Shown in pieces: positions 4,804-35,892 of a stretch of DNA of 35,892 nucleotides; position 1 is the stretch's first letter, and each line of letters begins with the position of its first letter. The translations under genes were made by a program, and so were the position numbers. The stretch comes from an uncultured Erysipelotrichaceae bacterium. Lineage in GTDB: Bacteria; Bacillota_I; Bacilli_A; RFN20; CAG-826. The notes under the pieces are model-generated. The model was not told where the DNA came from and did not search any database. It worked only from the letters and a program-made list of their open reading frames with translations. Location of the stretch: assembly GCA_902785645.1 (NCBI GenBank), contig CACZZG010000012.1:1-35892 (forward strand), given 5' to 3'.

Positions 4804-5148
4804 TTAGATAACCTTGACATCTCTTATTGCAACATCTCGACCAGTAATGAGGTAAGTGTTTTCCTTGCCACACTTTGGACAAGCTTTACCATAAGTTGTG
4901 GTTTTAAATGTTTCTTTACAGTCTTCACAATAAGATATGCCTTCAATCGTAATGTAATTTAATTTACATTCCTTCATGTATTCGGTTCTTTTTTTCGCCC
5001 AATCAAAGGCATCCACAAAGTATTCTTTGACTACTCCAGAAACCTCACCGACTTCTAGAGTTAATTCCACGACTTTATTGACGTTCTTTTCTTTGGCGAG
5101 TTGTTCAATTTGTTTAATGACGTGAACAACTATTCCTAACTCATGCAT
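4804..5148 (-). CDS. hypA: Nickel metallochaperone HypA
   Basis: HypA delivers nickel together with HypB, classically to [NiFe]-hydrogenase and in some bacteria to urease. The 114-residue protein starts MHE, and His2 with the N-terminal amine forms the nickel site. It has a zinc site of Cys74/Cys77 and Cys90/Cys93 (CEDC and CPKC). It overlaps the oxidoreductase gene by eight bases, so the two are translationally coupled, and it is the last gene of the hypB-oxidoreductase-hypA operon. No hydrogenase, hypCDEF or urease gene is in the window, so the client enzyme is not known from here. Confidence 0.92.
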   Translation of the reverse strand: MHELGIVVHVIKQIEQLAKEKNVNKVVELTLEVGEVSGVVKEYFVDAFDWAKKRTEYMKECKLNYITIEGISYCEDCKETFKTTTYGKACPKCGKENTYLITGRDVAIRDVKVI

Positions 5149-8038
5149 TTATGGAGTTTCCTGTATTTGGATGAGTCTTTCTGAATTCTTTGTTGTTCTT
5201 CTTCCACTCTCTGCGTTTCTTAGCCATCATACGAGCTTCTTTAGAACCAGAATTGAAGAGAATCTTCACAGCACGTTTTAAGGCATAGCCTGCTAAACCG
5301 CCGACTTTCTTTTCTGCAACTCTCATGTTGCTCATTTCTGGGTGATCTCTCACTAAGTGGATAGCGTCGAACTTACATTTTGTGGTACAAATACCACAAC
5401 CGATACATTTATTTGGATCGACATAAGCAGCACCACAAGATAAACAACGACCAGTTTCAATTCTGACTTGTTCTTCAGTTAAGGTCTTGTGTGCATCTTG
5501 GAAGGAGTTCTTGTAATCGATGGATGAATCCATACCTTCTTCTTGTCTACCGGCTTCATCATAACCAGGAAGAGTAATGTCTTCTTTATTTAATGGTGTG
5601 AAGCCACGATGGTTAAAGGCAATTGTTGGGTGAGCTTGTGGTCTGACATGTCTTGCTAATGCATCAGCAACGGCGTGGCCAGCAGCAATCGCATCAATAA
5701 CGAATTTTGGACCAGTGAAGACGTCACCACCAACGAAGATGTCATCATCTGCGGTTTGGAATGTTAATTTATCCGCTAACGGATAATTGCCATGCCAGAA
5801 TGTAACTTTTGTACCTTCAAGTAATTTGCCCCATTCAATGGCTTGACCGATAGCAAAGATGATTTTGTCAGCTTTGACTTCGACGACTTGACTTTCATCA
5901 TATTCTGGTGAGAATTTGCCAGTTTCTGGGTCGATTGTTCTGGTACATTTCTTAAAGACGATACCAGTAACTTCGCCTTTATCATTAACTTTGACTTCTT
6001 TTGGACCCCAAGAATTATCAATCACGATATCTTCTTCTAAGGTTTCTTTAATTTCTTCTAAAGAAGCAGGCATATGTTCTCTATCTTCTAAGCAGAACAT
6101 GGAGACTTTACTAGCGCCTAATCTATGTGCGGTTCTAGCACAGTCAACAGCGACGTTACCACCACCAACGACGATAACTTCACCTTTAAATGGAGTTCTA
6201 TCTTCTTGAGCTTTTCTCAAGTAATCGACAGCGATTTCTGTTCCTTTAGCAGTATCGTTTTCAACGCCAGGTCTTCTACCACCTTGGCAGCCGATAGCGA
6301 TATAGAAGGCTTTGTAGCCTTGTTTCTTTAATTCTTCAATTGTGATATCTTTACCGACTTCACAATTTGTTTTGATTTCAACACCTAAATCTTTAATGAC
6401 TTGGATTTCAGCATCGATAACATCTTTTTCTAATTTGTATTGTGGAATGCCATACATTAACATACCACCAGCTTTTTTGTTCTTTTCAAAGACAGTTGGT
6501 CTAAAGCCCATAACTGCTAAATAGTAAGCAGCGGTTAAACCAGCAGGACCACCACCGATAATAGCGATCTTTTCTTCAAATTCACCATGGGTATTTGGAA
6601 TAATCTTTTCTGGTGTATATCTTGTTTCTGATTTTAAATCAAAATCAGCGACAAATTTCTTAACGGCGTCAATGCTCACAGCGCGGTCAACATTACCACG
6701 TGTACATGCATCTTCACAACGTTTATTACAAACACGACCACAAACCGCTGGGAATGGGTTTTGCGTTTTAATTAAAGCTAAAGCTTCTTGATATTTTCCT
6801 TCATGAGCTTTCTTTAAATAACCTTGCACTGGGACGTGAGCAGGACATGCAGCTTTACATGGAGCGGTACCGGATTCATAGGTATCACTTCTTCTCATGG
6901 TGTCACGGTAATTTTCATCCCAAGCATATTTACCCCATTTGATCTTATCTGGTAATGGTTGATGTGGGTATTTAACTTCTTTACCTTTGGAGTCACATAA
7001 TTTTTGACCTAATTTAACGGCGCCAGCAGGACAGTTTTCAACACATTGGCCACAGGCCACACAGTCCATCTTTGTGACTCTAGCGGTATAACTACTACGT
7101 GATAAGTTTGGTGTCTTAAATAACATGGATGTTCTTAAGGCATTACAAATCTTCACGTCACAGTTACAAATATCAAAGATTTTGTTTTCACCATCAATAT
7201 TGGTGATTTGATGGACGAAACCATTCTTTTCGGATAATTCTAAGATTTCTAAAGCTCTTTCTTTGGTGATGTAATGCGCACGACCGGTTTCGACGGTATA
7301 GTCCGCCATATCGCCTAATTGGATACACCAATCATCGACATCATCAATACAGCCATCGCCTAAGACTGCTCTAGAAGCACGACAGCTACAAATACCAGCA
7401 GAGATATGACCATCATATTTCTTTAACCAGTGGGAAATCTTTTCTACATCAATCGCTTCATTTGTGGAAGCAATTGCTTTTTCAACAGGAATGACGTGCA
7501 TACCAACACCATCGCCTCCTGGAGGAATCATTTCGGTAATACCAGCGAGTGGAATGAATGTCATTCTTTCAAAAAAAGAAGCAACTGCTGGATTTTTCGC
7601 GATACGATCGACAGAGGAGTTCATTAATTCCGCTGAACCTGGAACGAAGAAACAAATACGATAACGTTTGATTTTTGGTGCATCTTTGATTGGTTCTTCC
7701 CAAGCATAGTTATCACCATAGTCGTATTCAACGATACCGATGACTGACATTTCATCTAATAATTGTTGTAATCTCGCTGGTTCGAGTTCGCGATTCATCT
7801 TCATTAGTTCTTCGAATGAATAGAATTTACGAAGTTTCATCTTATTGGCGATTCTGACCATATCAATAGTCAAGACTTCTCTTAATCCCCAATATTCTGG
7901 ATCGGTAGTCTTAATACCGGTGAGTTTGTGTACAACTACGTCAGTGATCTTTTTGGCGAGTTTTTTGTACTCTTTCTCGTATTCAAAGCCTTGTTCGCCT
8001 TGATACTTAGAAATGATTTTGGTGTTTTGTTCAGACAT
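5141..8038 (-). CDS. Multi-cluster Fe-S/FAD oxidoreductase, GltD-like
   Basis: The 965-residue protein has four parts. Residues 1-320 are an N-terminal region with a helical start and cysteine motifs GICSCR (216-220), Cys230/Cys238 and CNCD (291-294). A ferredoxin-type cluster lies at Cys326, 329, 332 and 336. Residues 390-880 form the GltD/dihydropyrimidine-dehydrogenase-like module: its own Cys-rich helical domain (394-445), the FAD fingerprint GGGPAG (495-500) and an NADPH fingerprint GGGNVA further on. A C-terminal ferredoxin (CIGCGICTTKC) ends it. It should pass electrons between NAD(P)H and a partner. True glutamate synthase needs a large GltB subunit, which is absent, so glutamate synthesis is unlikely. 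It sits between hypB and hypA, two bases after hypB. Confidence 0.9.
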   Translation of the reverse strand: MSEQNTKIISKYQGEQGFEYEKEYKKLAKKITDVVVHKLTGIKTTDPEYWGLREVLTIDMVRIANKMKLRKFYSFEELMKMNRELEPARLQQLLDEMSVIGIVEYDYGDNYAWEEPIKDAPKIKRYRICFFVPGSAELMNSSVDRIAKNPAVASFFERMTFIPLAGITEMIPPGGDGVGMHVIPVEKAIASTNEAIDVEKISHWLKKYDGHISAGICSCRASRAVLGDGCIDDVDDWCIQLGDMADYTVETGRAHYITKERALEILELSEKNGFVHQITNIDGENKIFDICNCDVKICNALRTSMLFKTPNLSRSSYTARVTKMDCVACGQCVENCPAGAVKLGQKLCDSKGKEVKYPHQPLPDKIKWGKYAWDENYRDTMRRSDTYESGTAPCKAACPAHVPVQGYLKKAHEGKYQEALALIKTQNPFPAVCGRVCNKRCEDACTRGNVDRAVSIDAVKKFVADFDLKSETRYTPEKIIPNTHGEFEEKIAIIGGGPAGLTAAYYLAVMGFRPTVFEKNKKAGGMLMYGIPQYKLEKDVIDAEIQVIKDLGVEIKTNCEVGKDITIEELKKQGYKAFYIAIGCQGGRRPGVENDTAKGTEIAVDYLRKAQEDRTPFKGEVIVVGGGNVAVDCARTAHRLGASKVSMFCLEDREHMPASLEEIKETLEEDIVIDNSWGPKEVKVNDKGEVTGIVFKKCTRTIDPETGKFSPEYDESQVVEVKADKIIFAIGQAIEWGKLLEGTKVTFWHGNYPLADKLTFQTADDDIFVGGDVFTGPKFVIDAIAAGHAVADALARHVRPQAHPTIAFNHRGFTPLNKEDITLPGYDEAGRQEEGMDSSIDYKNSFQDAHKTLTEEQVRIETGRCLSCGAAYVDPNKCIGCGICTTKCKFDAIHLVRDHPEMSNMRVAEKKVGGLAGYALKRAVKILFNSGSKEARMMAKKRREWKKNNKEFRKTHPNTGNSINA

Positions 8039-8040
8039 AA

Positions 8041-8715
8041 TTAATTCTCCTTAAACAATCTGAGCTTATTTATAAAATAATCCGCAACCAAATCAACACC
8101 TTCACCCGTTTTAGCGCTGATTGGTATAATGGTTGCATTTTTATTTCTCATTTTAATTGATTGCATGCACTTTTCTAAATTAAAGTCAAAATATGGTAAT
8201 GCATCAATTTTATTGATGATGACTAAGTCTGATTTCTCAAAAACTAATGGGTATTTGAGAGGTTTATCATCACCTTCGGGAATGGATAATATCATCACAT
8301 CAAGTGAAGCCCCAGTATCGAATTCCGCAGGACAAACAAGATTGCCGACGTTTTCGAGGAAGATTAAATCTAAATCAGACATATCAATTCCATCTAATCC
8401 GGTTTTGGTCATTCCAGCATCGAGATGACACATTCCATTAGTATGTAATTGAATAGATTTAACACCGGTTTTCTCAGCGATTTTAATAGCATCGACATCA
8501 GAGTCAATGTCCGCTTCCATCACTCCCACTCTAACCTTATCTTTTATCTTATTAATTAAAGCAGTAAGGGTTGTGGTTTTACCGGCTCCCGGGGAAGACA
8601 TTAAATTCACCACGAACACACCTTTGTTCTTAAGATATGCTCTAAGTTGATCCGCTTCATAATCGTTATCAGCATATACTGAGCGATGTAGAAGAATAGT
8701 CTTAACGTTTTCCAT
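8041..8715 (-). CDS. hypB: HypB-type GTPase, copy 1
   Basis: HypB is a SIMIBI GTPase that uses GTP to load nickel into enzyme precursors with HypA. This 224-residue copy has the P-loop SPGAGKTT (41-48), the metal-site MCHLDA (Cys96, His97), the switch-II ENVGNLVCP (Cys128) and the guanine-specificity NKID (168-171). It lacks the His-rich N-terminal nickel store of some HypBs. It heads the operon with the oxidoreductase and hypA. The start at 8715 has only a weak AAAAGA upstream; a TATAAT at 8724-8729 would give an almost leaderless message. Confidence 0.93.
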   Translation of the reverse strand: MENVKTILLHRSVYADNDYEADQLRAYLKNKGVFVVNLMSSPGAGKTTTLTALINKIKDKVRVGVMEADIDSDVDAIKIAEKTGVKSIQLHTNGMCHLDAGMTKTGLDGIDMSDLDLIFLENVGNLVCPAEFDTGASLDVMILSIPEGDDKPLKYPLVFEKSDLVIINKIDALPYFDFNLEKCMQSIKMRNKNATIIPISAKTGEGVDLVADYFINKLRLFKEN

Positions 8716-8788: not shown

Positions 8789-9445
8789 ATGGAAATACAA
8801 ATTGTCAAAGTTAAAGAAGATATTTTGCAAGAAAACAACTTGAGAGCAAATAAATTGCGTGATGAACTCAAGCAAAAAGGTATTTTCTTTATAAATGTCA
8901 TGGCCTCTCCTGGAAGTGGAAAGACAACATTATTAATAAAATTGATTAAAGAATTAGAAAAAGATTTTCACATTGGCGTTATGGAAGCGGATATTGATGG
9001 AGATGTTGATGCTTATCGTATCAGTGAAGCCACTACCGCTAAAACAATCCAAATTCATACATCAGGTGCTTGTCATTTAACCGCTCAAATGGTTTCTGAC
9101 GCTATTGATTCATTCAATGTTGAAGGATTAAATCTCTTATTTTTAGAAAATGTCGGAAATTTAGTATGCCCTGCTGAATTTGATACCGGAAGCAATATCA
9201 ACATGATGTTACTCTCTGTTCCTGAGGGTGATGATAAACCATTAAAATATCCTTTGATGTTCCAAGTCAGTCAAATTGCTATTATCACAAAAACCGATAC
9301 ATGTGAGATATTTGACTTCGATATCGATAGATGCAAAAAGAATATTCTTAATAGGAATAAGGATATAAAAATTTTCGAGACCTGTTCTTTAAAAAACGAA
9401 GGAATTAAACCTTTAGCGGATTATATAAGAAGTCTAATTAAATAA
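8789..9445 (+). CDS. HypB-type GTPase, copy 2
   Basis: This 218-residue paralogue is very similar to the divergent copy, keeping the P-loop SPGSGKTT (40-47), metal-site ACHLTA (Cys95, His96) and ENVGNLVCP (Cys127). It differs in the G4 motif, TKTD (167-170) in place of NKID, a form also used by other SIMIBI GTPases such as FtsY. It has a good AAGGTGA ribosome-binding site and is monocistronic, closed by its own terminator. The conserved Cys-His pair suggests it still binds metal. It may serve a second client or a second metal; either is inference. Confidence 0.9.
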   Translation: MEIQIVKVKEDILQENNLRANKLRDELKQKGIFFINVMASPGSGKTTLLIKLIKELEKDFHIGVMEADIDGDVDAYRISEATTAKTIQIHTSGACHLTAQMVSDAIDSFNVEGLNLLFLENVGNLVCPAEFDTGSNINMMLLSVPEGDDKPLKYPLMFQVSQIAIITKTDTCEIFDFDIDRCKKNILNRNKDIKIFETCSLKNEGIKPLADYIRSLIK

Positions 9446-9447
9446 AT

Positions 9448-9470
9448 GGAGCTTTGCTCCTTTTATTTTT
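9448..9470 (+). terminator. Terminator of second hypB
   Basis: GGAGC-TTT-GCTCC is followed by TTTTATTTTT, directly after the stop codon. Confidence 0.85.
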
Positions 9471-9532: not shown

Positions 9533-10993
9533 ATGGCAAAAACTGATGAAAGAATTTGCATTATCGGCGGAGGTCCAGCTGGTCTTTCTGCTGCAATGTA
9601 TTTGGAGAAAAAAGGCTACACAAACTATGTTATTTACGAAAAATTAAACAAAGTTGGTGGCAAATGTTGGTCTCCAAAAATTAAAGTAAAACACAACGGA
9701 AAAGAAGAAGAAAGAAGCTTCGAAACTGGTGCGATTATGGGTGCAATTACCTATCACGCAGTCAGCGAAATGGAAGAATTCGGTGGTTACTATCATAAGG
9801 GTCCAGACTTCAAAGAAGGCGAACCAAACATGAGAAGAGAATTCAGAAAGACCACTGGTGAAGTTGATCATCCATTTGAACCAAAAGTGAATTTCTCATT
9901 CAAAAAATTGTCTGGCTTACTTAAGTTAAAGAAACAAATGAAAAAACTTAATAAGTTAATGCAGACAAAGTATGTCGGCTACGACTGCTATGGACACTTA
10001 GGTGTTGCTAAAGGTGAATACTATGGTATCTCCAAGGGTGTTGATGGCTATTGTGGCGCAACAAAAGAAAACTCATTCCCAAATTATATTAAGGGTACAA
10101 ACCCAAATCTTAAAGATTTGGCATTACCATTTGCTGAATTCTGTAGAATCAATGGTGTCGAAGAAGTTCAAAGAATTTGGATCGCTCCATTCACATCATT
10201 CGGTTATGGATTCTTCGATGAAATTCCAGCAGCGTTAGTCATGAAATACTTAGACGTCACTACCGCACTTGAATTCGTCAACATGAAATTATGGACATGG
10301 CAAGATGGCACACAACAAATCTATGTTCACGTTAATGAAAAACTTCAACATCCAGCAGTTTTAGAAACTGAAGTTGTTAAAGTTGAACGTCCAGAAGGTA
10401 AAGTCTTAGTCACAATCAAAGGCAAAGACGGAAAAGAAAAAGTTGAACAATTCGATAAATTAATCGTCACCACACCATTAGACTATTTCGCAAAATATGC
10501 TGATGCTAGTGAAGAAGAAAAAGAATTATTCTCCAAGATCATCCACGAAAGATATTGCGATTATATAGCAACATTCGAAGAAGGCAAGAGTCCAAACATC
10601 TCTGGTTACCTCGTGGAAAACATGGTTCCAGAAAGACTTGGCCACGCCATGGTCTATTACAACAGATGGCAATGTCTTGATAGAGACTGCCCAGCTACAG
10701 TTTATGCTTTAGCAAATCATACTGGTACACCTGATGTCGACTTCGATGTCGTCATGAAGACAATGGATGAAGATATGCAAAAAGTCGGATTCCCAATTAA
10801 GGAAAAGATGTACGCACAAGAAGTTTATTACTGCCCACACGTCTCCGCAAAAGATTACGCTGATGGTTGGTATGATAAGCTCGAAGCCTTACAAGGTAAG
10901 AACAACACCTACTTCGCCGGCGAAATTATTAGCTTTGGTGATATGGAAGATACATGTGCTGCCAGTAAGGACATCATTGGTAGATTCTTCTAA
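9533..10993 (+). CDS. FAD-dependent polyunsaturated fatty acid isomerase-like protein
   Basis: This 486-residue flavoprotein resembles the Cutibacterium acnes polyunsaturated fatty acid isomerase (PAI), which converts linoleate to the trans-10,cis-12 conjugated form. Matching stretches, from memory of that protein, include CIIGGGPAGLSAAMYLE (FAD site, 9-25), VGGKCWSP, FETGAIMG, IAPFTSFGYGFFDEIPAA, LWTWQDGTQ, ISGYLVENMVPERLGH and the C-terminal NTYFAGEIISFGDMED, which closes the FAD site. It is about 60 residues longer than PAI; much of the excess is an insertion between the YVGYDCYGH motif and LALPFAEF. It has its own promoter, an AAGGAAGG ribosome-binding site and a terminator. A different unsaturated lipid substrate, or another amine-oxidase-fold activity, remains possible. 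Confidence 0.82.
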   Translation: MAKTDERICIIGGGPAGLSAAMYLEKKGYTNYVIYEKLNKVGGKCWSPKIKVKHNGKEEERSFETGAIMGAITYHAVSEMEEFGGYYHKGPDFKEGEPNMRREFRKTTGEVDHPFEPKVNFSFKKLSGLLKLKKQMKKLNKLMQTKYVGYDCYGHLGVAKGEYYGISKGVDGYCGATKENSFPNYIKGTNPNLKDLALPFAEFCRINGVEEVQRIWIAPFTSFGYGFFDEIPAALVMKYLDVTTALEFVNMKLWTWQDGTQQIYVHVNEKLQHPAVLETEVVKVERPEGKVLVTIKGKDGKEKVEQFDKLIVTTPLDYFAKYADASEEEKELFSKIIHERYCDYIATFEEGKSPNISGYLVENMVPERLGHAMVYYNRWQCLDRDCPATVYALANHTGTPDVDFDVVMKTMDEDMQKVGFPIKEKMYAQEVYYCPHVSAKDYADGWYDKLEALQGKNNTYFAGEIISFGDMEDTCAASKDIIGRFF

Positions 10994-11002
10994 TCGACAA
11001 AA

Positions 11003-11040
11003 CAAAAAAAGAACCACTTCTTTGAAGTGGTTTTTCTTTA
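11003..11040. terminator. Bidirectional terminator
   Basis: AACCACTTC-TTT-GAAGTGGTT (11012-11032) has an A-run on its left and a T-run on its right, so it serves both convergent genes. Confidence 0.9.
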
Positions 11041-11048
11041 TGTCTTTA

Positions 11049-12662
11049 TTATAATAATTTGAATTCTAGGTAAGCAGGATCGTGATCACTGAAGGCAAAT
11101 CCATCATAGCCTTTATCACCATTTTTTGTTTGCACGTTTTTGTGATTCACTACTTCAACGTTATCCGAGACGATAAAACCATCAATACAGCATGTGAATG
11201 TTTTTCCAGGTTCCCACTCAATATCGTTGTTACGGCATGTTGGTGTATTATCACTTGCCACGACATTATAGCCTTCTGTTAAAGGTGTTTTTCCTTCCTT
11301 ATCAAAGAAGTATGCGACCCAATCTGGAGTCTTGGTTTTTTGGGCAAATGGACGATTTTCAACATCGTAACTAAAGTCAGGATTATAGGTTAATAAATCA
11401 TGATTCCAGTCACCACCAATAACGACATAGTCGCCATTTTCTTTTCTTTCCTTAAGGAAAAGATTCAATTCTTCAACTTGTTTATTTCTAATTAAACCAC
11501 CTTCATCATAGGCGGACATGTGAGAATTAACTGCATATAATTTCTTTCCATTATCGACGTTGATAATGCTATAAGAGAAACATCTATCTAAATCTATATA
11601 TTTAGAAAATCCATTATCGACAGTATATTGTTTTCTTTCAGCATATTGCATTTTGTATCTACTTAGAGTCGTTAAACCAGCATTAACATAGCCGTGCATA
11701 TCATAAAGTGGATATGGAAGGAATGCAGTATGGAAATTGACTGCATGTGTATGATCAAATTCTTTAAATGATTCAACGATTCTTTTATCTTGATTAACGT
11801 GATAACTTCTTGTGGAATCTGTATCAACTTCTTGGAACATCACAAAGTCAGGATTTTCGTTTAAAACTGCAGAAATTGCACCATTCGTGTTGAAATTGAC
11901 GTGATTTTTGCTTTTTGCGGTGCTGTAATGACCACATGTTGCTTTTCCGTTTTCATCATAACCAGTATCGAGGAAGAAGGTGTAATCTTGAGAATAAGCA
12001 CCAAAGCCGATGTTGTATGTCATGGCCTTATAAGTCTCACCAACTTTAACAGTTTCTAATGTGGATTTATGATCAATTTGAAGTTCCTTATCGCCAATAC
12101 GATTATAGGATAAAAGAACATAACCAACATAACCGCCTGCAGCAAGAACTAAAGTGCCGACAACCATAAGGGAAATAACCACTACTCTTTTAACGATTTT
12201 CTTCGCGGCATTTTTCTTCGCTCTATTCTTTAAAGCGACGTCGAGTTTTTCACAAAGCAATTGATATCTAGCGAATTTTTCTTCGCTTTTAAAATGTTCT
12301 TCTCTTTTTTGTGGATTCTCTAATTTGTACTCGAGTTCTTTATCACCGAATTGTTCGCTTGTTAAATCAAAGACGACATCGCCAATGCGGTTATAACAAT
12401 GGAATCCACCATCTTCAAGTGGTACACCATATACCTCACCACCAAAAATGTCTTGAACAAGGAATGATGTAATAGAGCATTGACCTAACGTCTTATTATT
12501 TATAGACCATTCTGGGCGCATTCTTGGCGCGCAGGTATCAGAGGACCAAATCTTATCTAATAAGTCATATAAGTCACGTTGATTCTTAATTTGTTGATAT
12601 TTCTTATCAATAGGCAAAACATCTTGGGATTGCCAGCCAAAAAATTTATATTTAGTTTTCAT
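11049..12662 (-). CDS. YunG-like domain fused to membrane-anchored EEP phosphatase/nuclease
   Basis: The 537-residue protein has two domains around one membrane helix. Residues 30-110 resemble the small Bacillus YunG family: GQCSITSFLVQDIFGG (Cys62), GGFHCYN (His88) and VFDLT (Asp99), which together look like a cysteine-peptidase-like triad. Residues about 160-186 are a transmembrane helix preceded by a Lys/Arg-rich stretch, so the first domain should be cytoplasmic and the rest outside. Residues 213-537 form an endonuclease/exonuclease/phosphatase domain with a full set of motifs: MTYNIGFG, MFQEVD, VNSHMSAY, GGDWNHD and FSDHDPAYLEF. The substrate could be a phospholipid, nucleic acid or sugar phosphate. 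The EEP part is firm and the YunG assignment is from motif pattern. Confidence 0.8.
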   Translation of the reverse strand: MKTKYKFFGWQSQDVLPIDKKYQQIKNQRDLYDLLDKIWSSDTCAPRMRPEWSINNKTLGQCSITSFLVQDIFGGEVYGVPLEDGGFHCYNRIGDVVFDLTSEQFGDKELEYKLENPQKREEHFKSEEKFARYQLLCEKLDVALKNRAKKNAAKKIVKRVVVISLMVVGTLVLAAGGYVGYVLLSYNRIGDKELQIDHKSTLETVKVGETYKAMTYNIGFGAYSQDYTFFLDTGYDENGKATCGHYSTAKSKNHVNFNTNGAISAVLNENPDFVMFQEVDTDSTRSYHVNQDKRIVESFKEFDHTHAVNFHTAFLPYPLYDMHGYVNAGLTTLSRYKMQYAERKQYTVDNGFSKYIDLDRCFSYSIINVDNGKKLYAVNSHMSAYDEGGLIRNKQVEELNLFLKERKENGDYVVIGGDWNHDLLTYNPDFSYDVENRPFAQKTKTPDWVAYFFDKEGKTPLTEGYNVVASDNTPTCRNNDIEWEPGKTFTCCIDGFIVSDNVEVVNHKNVQTKNGDKGYDGFAFSDHDPAYLEFKLL

Positions 12663-13206: not shown

Positions 13207-13297
13207 TGGCGGAGAATTAGAGATTCGAACTCTAGCGGGACTTGCATCCCCTATCGGTTTTCAAGACCGACCCCTTCAACCACTTGGGTAATTCTCC
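13207..13297 (-). tRNA. tRNA-Ser (TGA)
   Basis: The 91-base gene has acceptor GGAGAAT/ATTCTCC, discriminator G73, encoded CCA, anticodon TGA and the long variable arm typical of serine tRNAs. It is the last gene of the cluster. Confidence 0.95.
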
Positions 13298-13300
13298 ATT

Positions 13301-13375
13301 TGGTGGACCAGGAGGATCACGATACCCCAACCATTCGGTTATGGGCCGAAGGCTCTTCCTTTGAGCTACTGGTCC
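13301..13375 (-). tRNA. tRNA with CAT anticodon, probably Ile2 (lysidine type)
   Basis: The 75-base gene has acceptor GGACCAG/CTGGTCC, anticodon loop CCCATAA and encoded CCA. Three CAT tRNAs lie in the window; the initiator and an elongator Met are clear, so this one is most likely the Ile2 species whose C34 is converted to lysidine by TilS. The GGACC acceptor fits Ile2. Its T arm is odd: the loop reads ATCGTGA rather than TTCGANN, and the closing pair 53-61 is T-T. Confidence 0.75.
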
Positions 13376-13383
13376 GTCTTTTT

Positions 13384-13409
13384 AAATAAAGGGGTTGTTT
13401 TCCAACCCC
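13384..13409 (-). terminator. Hairpin between tRNA-Met and tRNA-Ile2
   Basis: GGGGTTG pairs with CAACCCC around a 5-base loop and is followed on the minus strand by TTTATTTAAA. The T-run is weak, so it may be a leaky terminator or a processing hairpin within the tRNA transcript. Confidence 0.5.
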
Positions 13410-13422
13410 GTTATTAACTGAT

Positions 13423-13499
13423 TGGTAGCTGAGGACGGATTTGAACCGCCGACCTTAGAGGTATGAACTCTCTGCTCTAGCCAACTGAGCTACTCAGCC
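13423..13499 (-). tRNA. Elongator tRNA-Met (CAT)
   Basis: The 77-base cloverleaf has anticodon loop TTCATAC, acceptor GGCTGAG/CTCAGCT with a G1-T72 wobble as in Bacillus elongator tRNA-Met, and encoded CCA. Confidence 0.93.
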
Positions 13500-13504
13500 A
13501 AATT

Positions 13505-13580
13505 TGGTGGATCTAAAGAGACTCGAACTCTCGACCCCCTGAATGCAAATCAGGTGCTCTCCCAACTGAGCTATAGACCC
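13505..13580 (-). tRNA. tRNA-Ala (TGC)
   Basis: The 76-base gene has anticodon loop TTTGCAT, acceptor GGGTCTA/TAGATCC, A73 and encoded CCA. The alanine identity G-T wobble is at the third acceptor pair. Confidence 0.95.
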
Positions 13581-13619
13581 AAATTGCACCTTCTTTCGAA
13601 GATGCAAGAATAATCAATC

Positions 13620-13696
13620 TGGTCGGGACGACAGGATTTGAACCTGCGACCTTCAGTTCCCAAAACTGACGCGATACCAAGCTACGCTACGTCCCG
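13620..13696 (-). tRNA. tRNA-Pro (TGG)
   Basis: The 77-base gene has anticodon loop TTTGGGA, acceptor CGGGACG/CGTCCCG, discriminator A73 and encoded CCA. Confidence 0.95.
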
Positions 13697-13700
13697 ATTA

Positions 13701-13777
13701 TGGCGCGCCTCACAAGAATCGAACTCGTAACCTCCAGATTCGTAGTCTGACACTCTATCCAGTTGAGCTAGAGGCGC
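13701..13777 (-). tRNA. tRNA-Arg (ACG)
   Basis: The 77-base gene has anticodon loop CTACGAA, so position 34 is A, to be deaminated to inosine by TadA. The acceptor is GCGCCTC/GAGGCGC with G73 and encoded CCA. Confidence 0.95.
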
Positions 13778-13779
13778 TG

Positions 13780-13854
13780 TGGAGGTTCCTACCGGATTTG
13801 AACCAGTGATCATTGAGTTGCAGTCAATTGCCTTACCAGCTTGGCTAAGGAACC
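13780..13854 (-). tRNA. tRNA-Cys (GCA)
   Basis: The 75-base gene has anticodon loop CTGCAAC, discriminator T73 (a cysteine identity element) and encoded CCA. It is the first gene of the cluster, about ten bases after the expected transcript start. Confidence 0.95.
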
Positions 13855-32267: not shown

Positions 32268-32939
32268 CTATCTTTTGTCGACTATATTGTTTTTATCTTT
32301 ATAAATTGAATTTTCTGGAACCACACCTCTAACACTGCTAAGTGGATAAACTTGAGTGTTTTTACCAATGACGGTTCCTGGATTTAAGACACTACCGCAT
32401 CCAATATCCGCTTTATCAGCGAGAATACCACCGATTTTTCTTAATCCTGTTTCGATGTCTTCATCACCATGAATGACGATATTTTTGCCATCGCTTTTGA
32501 GATTGGAACAGATTGAACCAGCACCCATATGTGCATAATTACCTAATATCGAATCCCCGACGTAGTTATAATGCGGAGCTTGGACGTGATAAAGAAGAAT
32601 ACAATTCTTAAATTCTGATGAATTGCCTAAGACACAATTATCACCAACGATGACATTACCTCTTAAATAAGCACCTGGTCTAATTTCTGTATTAGCACCG
32701 ATAATGGCTGGAGGAATAATCGTAGCAAATTCACTGATTTGGACATTTTCACCCACTAAAACACCTTCTTTTAATAAGTGATAACCATCTAATCCTTTTT
32801 CTAAAATATCTTTGATAATGCCCTTAATTTGCGGTAATAATTCCCAAGGATACTTAGCTTCTTCAAAATATTTCTTTAGATAAGGAATATCACATTCGAA
32901 TAAATCTTTAGTTAATACTTTTTTCTTATTCACAAACAT
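32268..32939 (-). CDS. Left-handed beta-helix acetyltransferase resembling the C-terminal half of GlmU
   Basis: The 223-residue protein has a helical N-terminal 60 residues and then hexapeptide repeats that build a left-handed beta-helix. EIRPGAYLRGNVIVGDNC, SSEFKNCILL and APHYNYVGDSILGNYAHMGAGSICSN correspond to the GlmU acetyltransferase half, with the central His aligning to its catalytic His. The GlmU pyrophosphorylase half is missing. It probably acetylates glucosamine-1-phosphate or a related sugar. It overlaps glmM by 14 bases and has an AGAGGA ribosome-binding site; nagB follows 10 bases later. Confidence 0.85.
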   Translation of the reverse strand: MFVNKKKVLTKDLFECDIPYLKKYFEEAKYPWELLPQIKGIIKDILEKGLDGYHLLKEGVLVGENVQISEFATIIPPAIIGANTEIRPGAYLRGNVIVGDNCVLGNSSEFKNCILLYHVQAPHYNYVGDSILGNYAHMGAGSICSNLKSDGKNIVIHGDEDIETGLRKIGGILADKADIGCGSVLNPGTVIGKNTQVYPLSSVRGVVPENSIYKDKNNIVDKR

Positions 32940-34563
32940 ATCCTCTTTTCTTAATCACTTTATAAATACGATCAATATATTCGTCACATTCTTGTAAGGT
33001 TGGACATTCAAGCATAATACGAACGACTGGCTCAGTGCCTGATTGTCTTAATAAAGCACGGCCATTATCGCCAATCTCATCGTTGACTTCTTTAAATTTG
33101 GCTTGAACTTGTTCATCAGCAACAACCGCAGCTTTGTTCGTTACACGAACATTTTTAAGTTTTTGCGGTAATAATTTGACTGGTGAAACAAGCTTTGCCA
33201 ATGATTGCTTGGTATCAAGCATTTCTTCCACAACCATAATTGCAGTTAAAACACCATCGCCTGTTGTGGCGTATTTCTTAATGATGATGTGACCGGATTG
33301 TTCGCCGCCAAGTGAATAACCATCACTTTGCATCTTTTCAAAGACGAATCTATCACCAACTTTGGTTTGAACATTATTGATTCCAATATTCTTTAAGGCT
33401 TTAGTTAAGCCAGAGTTAGACATAATCGTGGTCACTAAAGTGTTGTTATCAAGTGCGCCTTCTCTTTTGAGTTTATTGGCTAATAAATACATAATCTTAT
33501 CACCATCGACTACTTTACCGGTGTTATCGACAGCTAAACATCTATCGGCGTCACCATCAAAAGCAAAGCCAACATCTAAATTGTTTTCTTTGACATATTT
33601 ACATAAGTTTTCAATATGTGTACTACCAGCATCAACGTTGATATTTAAACCATTTGGTTGATTATTAATGATGTATGTTTGTGCGCCTAAAGCGTCAAAG
33701 ACGCTCTTAGCGATCATCCATGAAGCACCGTTCGCGGTGTCTAATCCAATCTTTAAATTCTTCATTGAATGTCTGGCTAGAGAGATCAAGTAACCAATAT
33801 ATCTATTTCTTCCGGAAGAATAATCATTGATGGTTCCGACATTTTCTCTAGAGGCAAATGGTAAATCTTTACCATCAACTTCTAATTTCTTTAAATCTCC
33901 ATCAATGTATGCCTCAGCAAGAACCGCCACTTCATCCTCTAACTTTTCGCCGTTAGAGTTAATGACTTTAATACCATTGTCATAGAATGGGTTATGACTT
34001 GCGGTAATCATCACACCACAGTCAAAACCATCTTGTCTAACGATATAGCTAACACTTGGTGTGGTTGTGACATGTAACAATTCCACGTCTGCACCAGAAG
34101 AAGCTAGTCCAGCAGCGACTGCGTATTCAAACATATAAGATGATCTTCTTGTGTCTTTACCTATGACCACTCTTGGACGGTAACCAGGTTTTTGCATTGT
34201 ATATTTAGGATTTGAATAGAACCAGCCTAAAAATCTACCGATTTTATAAGCGTGATCGCATGTCAAAACGATATTTGATTCTCCTCTAAATCCATCTGTA
34301 CCAAAATATTTGGTTTTGATGTCTTCTCCGATTGACATTTTGAGTTTCTTGCCACGATGAATAACAACTTTATCATTGATCATTTCATCGGCGCTAATCT
34401 TAAAAATTTCGCATAATTGTTTAATGTTATCGATGTTTGGCAAAGTTTCATCATTTTCCCATTTGGATAGAGATTGACGGGAAATTTCCATCATTTTTGC
34501 TAAATCATCTTGAGATAAATTATTTACAACACGTAAATGGTATATTTTTTCTCCAATAGTCAT
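32926..34563 (-). CDS. glmM: Phosphoglucosamine mutase with N-terminal HTH domain
   Basis: GlmM converts glucosamine-6-phosphate to glucosamine-1-phosphate for cell-wall precursors. Residues about 84-545 give the full enzyme: KYFGTDGFRG, the phosphoserine loop TASHNPFYDNG (187-197), metal loop FDGDADRC, GGEQSGH and the phosphate site RQSGTEPVVRI. Residues 1-60 form a XRE-type helix-turn-helix (LSQDDLAKMMEISRQSLSKWEN), which normal GlmM lacks. The internal Met76 has no ribosome-binding site, so a separate GlmM start is unlikely. The ATG at 34563 follows AAGGAA at a long distance. The fusion may let the enzyme sense sugar phosphate and control transcription, which is inference. Confidence 0.9.
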   Translation of the reverse strand: MTIGEKIYHLRVVNNLSQDDLAKMMEISRQSLSKWENDETLPNIDNIKQLCEIFKISADEMINDKVVIHRGKKLKMSIGEDIKTKYFGTDGFRGESNIVLTCDHAYKIGRFLGWFYSNPKYTMQKPGYRPRVVIGKDTRRSSYMFEYAVAAGLASSGADVELLHVTTTPSVSYIVRQDGFDCGVMITASHNPFYDNGIKVINSNGEKLEDEVAVLAEAYIDGDLKKLEVDGKDLPFASRENVGTINDYSSGRNRYIGYLISLARHSMKNLKIGLDTANGASWMIAKSVFDALGAQTYIINNQPNGLNINVDAGSTHIENLCKYVKENNLDVGFAFDGDADRCLAVDNTGKVVDGDKIMYLLANKLKREGALDNNTLVTTIMSNSGLTKALKNIGINNVQTKVGDRFVFEKMQSDGYSLGGEQSGHIIIKKYATTGDGVLTAIMVVEEMLDTKQSLAKLVSPVKLLPQKLKNVRVTNKAAVVADEQVQAKFKEVNDEIGDNGRALLRQSGTEPVVRIMLECPTLQECDEYIDRIYKVIKKRGYVCE

Positions 34564-34762
34564 AATAAATACCAATTCCTTTTCTTTCTAAATATAAAAC
34601 TCTGTAAAAATAAATACAATATGAAATGTAAACTTTACTTTACTTATACTTTTAAAATACCACTATTACGTAGTAAATGTATGTTTGGTACTTTATGACA
34701 TTTTATTTACAAGTTGCATTTTTATATTAAAATAAAATTGATTTTGATAAGATAATATTGTT

Positions 34763-35146: not shown

Positions 35147-35160
35147 TTATCAGTCTTTTA
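35137..35160. terminator. Bidirectional terminator
   Basis: GACTGA-TTA-TCAGTC, flanked by A- and T-runs, overlaps the regulator's stop codon and ends both convergent genes. Confidence 0.85.
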
Positions 35161-35892
35161 TTTTCTTTTTAGGAATAATTAGCAACATGCTTGTTGTTTT
35201 AATATATTCTTCAATATTGGGTTTATAACTTTTCATGTGCTTTTCTTCCATCGGGATGGAAATGAACAAGAACATCAATAGATTGATAATCGCTCCAGAC
35301 AAGAAATACCAGTAGGAAATATGTCCAATCACTAATACAAATGCCGCGCCAAACCAAATTAATATTTCGCCTAAATAGTTAGGATGTCTGGAATAATTCC
35401 ATAAACCAAAATTAATAACTTCTGATTTATCGGTTCTTATCTTAATAAATTCTTTCATTTGTAAATCAGAAATTAATTCGAGATATGTTCCTAATATAAT
35501 TACCACTGAACCAATAATATCTAATAAAGAATATGAATCAGTGGGTAACGAAGCATAGACGAATAATGGCAAAGAAGCAGAATAAACCACTAAAGTGGGA
35601 AACATGCAAATCCCAAATAAATTAACTAATTGGAATAGCTTTCCGCTTTTCTCCTTAAGCATCTTATATCTCCAGTCAACATAAGATAAATCATGGAAAC
35701 CTTTAATAAAATTAACTGTTAGTCTCACGGAATATAAAAGGATAGCGAATAAAGGAAGCAATGTATAAATGTTAAAGTGATTGAAATATATGATTGTTCC
35801 TAAATATAAGAAGAATGTCTGTAATGACCAATACGGATCATACATAGATGGGGTTTTAAATAAAACACCCATGAGCCACACAAATATAGTTG
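35150..35892 (-). CDS. DUF1295 membrane protein, 5' end outside window
   Basis: This protein belongs to the DUF1295 group, related to steroid 5-alpha-reductases and isoprenylcysteine methyltransferases. About six hydrophobic helices are visible. The family signature YSRHPNYLGEILIWFG is followed by the late MEEKHMKSY-x-EEYIKTTSMLLIIP segment, both of which bind cofactor in relatives. The frame is open to the edge at 35892 with no stop, and the visible part starts near the YDPYWSL element that normally comes after an N-terminal helix. So the true start lies outside, perhaps 20-40 residues upstream. The substrate is unknown; a lipid reductase or methyltransferase role is likely. Confidence 0.82.
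   Translation of the reverse strand, partial: TIFVWLMGVLFKTPSMYDPYWSLQTFFLYLGTIIYFNHFNIYTLLPLFAILLYSVRLTVNFIKGFHDLSYVDWRYKMLKEKSGKLFQLVNLFGICMFPTLVVYSASLPLFVYASLPTDSYSLLDIIGSVVIILGTYLELISDLQMKEFIKIRTDKSEVINFGLWNYSRHPNYLGEILIWFGAAFVLVIGHISYWYFLSGAIINLLMFLFISIPMEEKHMKSYKPNIEEYIKTTSMLLIIPKKKIKD

Follow-up and report, generated by a model that had tools for sequence, protein, structure and literature searches.

The window, the whole stretch of 35,892 nucleotides analysed here, comes from an uncultured Erysipelotrichaceae bacterium and contains on its forward strand, at positions 9533 to 10993, an uninterrupted open reading frame encoding a 486-amino acid protein, which sequence homology, fold and alignment assign to the FAD-dependent polyunsaturated fatty acid isomerase (PAI) family. 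Upstream by 87 bp on the same strand is HypB2 (8789..9445), a HypB-type GTPase. Divergently from these lie three reverse-strand genes: HypB1 (8041..8715), a second HypB-type GTPase; OxR (5141..8038), at 2 bp from HypB1, a 965-amino acid IsrA-like NAD(P)H/FAD/Fe-S oxidoreductase and candidate conjugated-diene reductase; and a HypA-type nickel metallochaperone (4804..5148), 8 bp of which overlap the end of OxR. Terminator-like hairpins, called purely by consensus scan, are located between HypB2 and PAI (9448..9460, forward strand) and 3' of PAI (11009..11035, forward strand), and a promoter scan, with 20 sites compared with 20.5 in shuffled sequences, was uninformative. Further along, the reverse strand carries a 537-amino acid protein with a YunG domain and an endonuclease/exonuclease/phosphatase domain separated by a hydrophobic stretch (11049-12662), a cluster of seven tRNA genes with a GAF-domain gene on one side and an ABC transporter set on the other (13207-13854), and a phosphoglucomutase/phosphomannomutase fused in a single open reading frame to an N-terminal helix-turn-helix domain (32926-34575). 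At the window edge is a DUF1295/steroid 5-alpha-reductase-like protein, another possible lipid reductase (35150-35881, reverse strand).

How secure is the identity of the PAI protein? In a search of PDB sequences it matches the Cutibacterium acnes PAI (2b9w) with 348.6 bits (E 4.2e-103), and the next distinct sequence, cyclopiazonate dehydrogenase, scores 31.7 bits (E 5e-7). Residues 4-156 and 194-486 of 486 align with residues 5-134 and 139-423 of 2b9w, at 45.5% identity over 415 aligned residues. Within the FAD-binding Rossmann fingerprint (residues 7-43; 9551..9661, forward strand) the GGGPAG...E36 pattern is present, as is the C-terminal motif AGEIISFGDMEDTC; a sequence-only reading of this DNA had described a match to PAI along almost the whole protein, FAD site and final motif included, and all of this is seen in the sequence. 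An AlphaFold model built from 38 relatives (pLDDT 89.5, pTM 0.89) has 2b9w as its best fold match (E 2.6e-46, TM 0.94 by target), followed by a match with E 3.4e-21. In a tree of 21 proteins the C. acnes PAI joins the window clade with support of 96/97, although this adds little beyond the scores, the only two outgroups (a PAI-like protein sharing about 30% identity with the C. acnes enzyme, and another flavoprotein) being far removed and on long branches. Pfam gives only broad flavoprotein families, 11 in number, and the MCRA domain of oleate hydratases and MCRA linoleate enzymes is absent among them; none of the NCBIfam models listed for the protein scores above its own cut-off, and family searches alone would therefore miss the PAI identity. 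Crude dN/dS values of 0.02-0.08 against three relatives, with one dS saturated and a comparison with L062 left out as out of register, indicate that the gene is under purifying selection.

The residues presumed to contact the fatty acid tell the same story. R88 of 2b9w, which we take to hold the substrate carboxylate in the C. acnes enzyme, aligns with R102 of the window protein (9836..9838), and F168 and F193, presumably packing against the acyl chain, align with F223 (10199..10201) and F248 (10274..10276), all on the forward strand. Equivalents of all three are kept in 18/18 PAI-clade rows besides C. acnes, so the channel-residue check proposed in the sequence-only reading comes out in its favour for these three positions. 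Nor does the protein sort with the amine oxidases, every one of which 2b9w far outscores. With the score gap, the fold, the tree and the three residues in agreement, the assignment as a PAI homologue stands: judged from its sequence, the protein is a true PAI-family member, and trans-10,cis-12 conjugated linoleic acid (CLA) is a plausible predicted product.

The extra segment noticed earlier near the middle of the protein is also real. It occupies residues 157-193 (10001..10111, forward strand; placed by alignment, with two short strands in the model), where the window PAI has 37 amino acids and the C. acnes PAI has 4. The 37-amino acid form is common to the near relatives, one group has 28 and L010 has 26, and the lengths are graded across relatives (37, 28, 26, 15 and 4 amino acids). 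The suggestion that the segment alters substrate or membrane contact finds no support, the insert being polar, length-graded and confidently modelled (mean pLDDT 82-92 per ten residues across residues 161-190), and there is no indication of a role at the membrane. The window PAI is an ordinary member of its family in an unusual and informative setting, and its interest comes from the cluster around it.

The conserved HypB/OxR/HypA neighbourhood, absent from the sequence-only reading, is the more informative part of the locus. Among 82 loci, HypB is found within six genes of PAI in 30, an OxR-type protein in 29 (a few of these being a 410-amino acid relative) and HypA in 21. By a stricter count, OxR is no more than 6 kb from PAI in 32/80 loci, and in 16 of the 37 loci flanked on each side by 5 kb or more. 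The commonest gene order is HypB-PAI-HypB-OxR-HypA, and several others occur, including PAI-like, HypB, OxR, HypA in G106, whose PAI-like protein is 28% identical to the window PAI. In three genomes (G027, G151 and G323) the HypB2-HypB1-OxR-HypA block and PAI are on different contigs. Chance adjacency was rejected as an explanation, since this gene set turns up repeatedly, across many loci and orders, and its members co-occur even when unlinked. The HypB proteins form two groups in a tree. The group holding HypB2 includes all 19 of the HypB proteins encoded directly upstream of PAI and 11 that are not, every one of the 11 from a PAI genome. The other group holds the OxR-adjacent HypB proteins, those of the L094 and G106 loci, and five from PAI-less genomes, where HypB was sought in 1.5 kb flanks and five proteins passed the motif filter for the tree. 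Maturation of a hydrogenase was ruled out as the role of the Hyp cluster: the NiFe large subunit (PF00374) was found in 0/22 PAI genomes and hypD in 1/22, only G106. Beside OxR in a PAI-less genome is a membrane protein (L119:398-1099, reverse strand) to which Pfam assigns DsbD_2; its H-x4-DH stretch, which we take to resemble those of nickel/cobalt transporters, would fit nickel use.

What kind of enzyme might OxR be? Its N-terminal 320 amino acids match no Pfam family, its best-scoring PDB stretches start at residue 371 or later, and its middle part has, by homology, the NfnB/GltD fold. Two CxC motifs at 217/219 and 291/293, 74 residues apart and invariant in 30 sequences, are joined by two more cysteines in a Cys6 region (C217, C219, C238, C291, C293 and C298; 7145..7390, reverse strand) that is a candidate metal or substrate site. 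Of the four 4Fe-4S motifs, the one that comes next, C326/329/332/336, has the same offset from the CxC as in IsrA. IsrA, labelled a putative isoprene reductase by its authors, shows the same 74-residue step between its CxC motifs (180/182 and 254/256), followed by a 4Fe-4S motif at 289-300, and is encoded in Acetobacterium wieringae by an isoprene-induced operon of five genes (IsrA, two HypA, HypB and a ferredoxin) in a genome described as having no NiFe hydrogenase (PMC10134865). IsrA homologues of clade 9 are reported to adjoin HypA (73%), HypB (56%), DUF5692 and TetR, in two Acetobacterium species one lies next to an oleate hydratase, and a range of conjugated hydrocarbons has been proposed as substrates of the homologues; linoleic acid goes without mention in the main text of that paper (PMC10134865). 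OxR homologues in genomes without PAI are flanked by HypA and HypB, and in several cases by DUF5692 or TetR. By the features reported for IsrA, OxR is best read as belonging to the IsrA group or closely related to it. An isoprene-reducing strain, strain Y, is reported to reduce 1,3-butadiene and isoprene, and not ethene, propene or fumarate (PMC9765523), and such selectivity for conjugated dienes is what an isomerase would have to feed.

The association of OxR with PAI extends beyond linkage. OxR was counted at E <= 1e-150 in the class and scan genomes and as full-length matches in the 58 near relatives, where four weaker matches, confined to the GltD-like part, were excluded. Among 296 class genomes, OxR is present in all 10 that have PAI and in 12 of the 286 that do not (Fisher 5e-13); collapsed to genera, the counts are 7/7 and 12/159 (8e-8). 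In the near relatives, full-length OxR occurs in 9/11 PAI genomes compared with 2/47 others, and the two PAI genomes without it, G004 and G055, are 78% and 81% complete. Of 50 PAI genomes taken by locus number from the best 80 of 538 scan matches, 47 have OxR, linked or not, and those of L033, L057 and L087 do not. The distances of the two proteins correlate less tightly. Across 15 genomes r is 0.75, falling to 0.51 once the outlier L021 is removed, and with rplB allowed for, the partial r in the remaining 14 genomes is 0.22, which means that PAI and OxR do not always move together; strict co-transfer is accordingly not claimed. In the 12 PAI-less genomes that carry it, OxR must serve other purposes.

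PAI itself is patchy and mobile. At a threshold of E <= 1e-20, and with the window genome counted each time, it is present in 11/58 near relatives, 10/296 class (Bacilli) genomes and 8/295 phylum-sample genomes; the phylum samples largely repeat the class sample, and the counts are kept apart and never summed. Scanning the species collection brought up 538 PAI relatives; the best 80 of them are titled Bacilli, Bacillales, Erysipelotrichaceae, Clostridia, Ruminococcaceae, Christensenella and others, including one Spirochaetaceae. A ruminant is named in 21 of these 80 titles, which are shortened, and another host in 0/80; the near relatives of the window genome come from cattle, goat and deer. 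Between the window genome and Clostridia-type MAGs, PAI identity is 88% and ribosomal protein L2 identity 60-62%, a comparison made without L149, from which rplB was not recovered, and without two matches lacking loci. In one of these genomes (L047) PAI, OxR and rplB are all on one contig, and in G011 (which is also L024) PAI and rplB share a contig, so for pairs of this type transfer is real and mis-binning is ruled out. Mis-binning could affect other MAGs, most of all L077, which is titled Spirochaetaceae. PAI has thus spread between Bacilli and Clostridia MAGs. Carriage by viruses was rejected, no PAI relatives having been found in viral contigs. In G001, of the same genus as the window genome (L009 and L014), the PAI copy is disrupted: its downstream match contains two stop codons, through either assembly error or gene decay.

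How might an isomerase and an IsrA-type reductase work together? The double bonds of linoleate are isolated, not conjugated. The PAI-type FAD isomerase would conjugate those of linoleate, and probably of alpha-linolenate too, and the conjugated diene so formed would most likely be trans-10,cis-12 CLA. In OxR, electrons from NAD(P)H would travel by way of FAD and successive 4Fe-4S clusters to the six-cysteine site, with maturation of the enzyme by HypB1, HypB2 and HypA predicted to involve nickel, and OxR would reduce the conjugated diene to a monoene with a single trans double bond, trans-10 18:1 if the isomerase product is trans-10,cis-12 CLA. A need of the reductase for a conjugated diene would explain why isomerisation precedes reduction. 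PAI and OxR could then be viewed as a biohydrogenation module for exogenous fatty acids, isomerisation followed by reduction. FabF was detected in only 1/12 PAI genomes, so most carriers probably import their fatty acids and would be exposed directly to linoleate from the diet. We consider it probable that PAI conjugates linoleate and that a nickel-matured, IsrA-type OxR reduces the conjugated diene. The broader proposal is that this horizontally spread gene set performs trans-10 biohydrogenation in uncultured rumen bacteria, that OxR is the CLA reductase previously missing from the pathway, and that many IsrA homologues have fatty acids as their natural substrate; this we put forward tentatively, as a possibility that goes further than we would expect to hold.

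Several observations count against such a module. OxR is not within 6 kb of PAI in 21/37 well-flanked loci, is used without PAI and shows only a weak correlation of distances with it; in the window, a terminator-like hairpin separates HypB2 from PAI; and the C. acnes PAI, a maker of trans-10,cis-12 CLA, shows no sign here of needing Hyp proteins. In G049 the PAI adjoins a different flavoprotein pair, though OxR is found elsewhere in that genome. There (L103:10072-14309), a PAI homologue of 49% identity is followed by a 524-amino acid flavoprotein (Pfam Amino_oxidase), presumably CrtI/retinol-saturase-like, and a 410-amino acid FAD/NAD/2Fe-2S reductase, possibly another set that isomerises and then reduces.

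One alternative is that PAI makes CLA by itself, like the C. acnes enzyme, with OxR, HypA and HypB an unrelated anaerobic redox module of the same gut bacteria that shares their habitat and transfer routes. It is favoured by the 12 of 296 genomes that have OxR but no PAI, by the 21 of 37 loci where the two lie apart, and by the partial correlation of 0.22. We regard this as unlikely, as OxR is present in 10/10, 9/11 and 47/50 PAI genomes, including cases where it and PAI are on separate contigs, and one of the two HypB groups goes with PAI. A PAI-family flavoenzyme with some other substrate (a terpenoid, a retinoid or another diene), whose product OxR reduces, would be compatible with an identity of 45.5% to the C. 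acnes PAI, with the 37-amino acid insert and with the varied conjugated hydrocarbons proposed for IsrA homologues (PMC10134865). It seems less likely still, given the conservation of R88, F168 and F193 in all 18 other PAI-clade rows, the ruminant-gut sources, where linoleate and linolenate are abundant, and the oleate hydratase reported beside the two Acetobacterium IsrA homologues (PMC10134865). That OxR is instead an electron donor keeping the PAI FAD reduced or active, and leaves the PAI product unreduced, as its nature as an NAD(P)H/FAD/Fe-S electron carrier by NfnB/GltD homology might suggest, is very improbable in view of the reported activity of C. acnes PAI in E. coli and Lactococcus with no known partner (PMC2885616) and of the conserved N-terminal six-cysteine site of OxR, which is like the proposed substrate site of IsrA.

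In dairy cows, trans-10,cis-12 CLA lowers milk fat, and the ruminal bacteria that form trans-10 intermediates have been called unclear (PMC7339423); before the C. acnes isolate described in 2024, no rumen strain was reported to be available (PMC11770317). A genome study of 2015 described a search for the Butyrivibrio fatty-acid oxidoreductase as impossible, the enzyme being absent from all of its databases (PMC4478896). The cluster provides candidate genes for both steps of ruminal trans-10 biohydrogenation, together with many uncultured carriers, and makes the genes of this process testable. It suggests a natural substrate for a large nickel-chaperone-linked reductase group of unknown function, and may help to explain how a fat that depresses milk fat in cows is formed and removed.

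Published work already records PAI homologues in rumen MAGs: seven such MAGs were reported to carry homologues with 40% identity or more, and one of the seven correlated with milk trans-10,cis-12 18:2 (PMC10019597). These probably belong to the same gene family as the window PAI, and the accessible text of that report describes no neighbours, reductase or horizontal transfer for them. We found no literature joining PAI with OxR, HypA or HypB in a search that left most subscription journals outside its reach. Compared with the PAI of C. acnes, which is reported to make trans-10,cis-12 CLA, the window PAI is alike in whole-length homology, fold, FAD motif, the three presumed substrate-contacting residues and the C-terminal motif, and differs in its insert at residues 157-193. 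Unlike C. acnes, the carriers of window-type PAI are small-genome gut Bacilli and Clostridia MAGs, and their genomes, often within the cluster itself, carry OxR, HypA and HypB. The isr operon of A. wieringae is similar in its oxidoreductase of about 900 amino acids using FAD and NAD(P)H, with a Cys6 site and the same Fe-S layout, in its HypA and HypB neighbours, and in the reported lack of a NiFe hydrogenase (PMC10134865). It has two HypA and one HypB, whereas the window has two HypB and one HypA, a fatty-acid isomerase and no separate ferredoxin gene that could be seen; the substrate of OxR, unlike that proposed for IsrA, would be something other than isoprene. The CLA reductase of Butyrivibrio fibrisolvens (Hughes 1982; Fukuda 2007; both via PMC4478896) would carry out, on a conjugated diene, the same second step as that proposed for the candidate reductase OxR.
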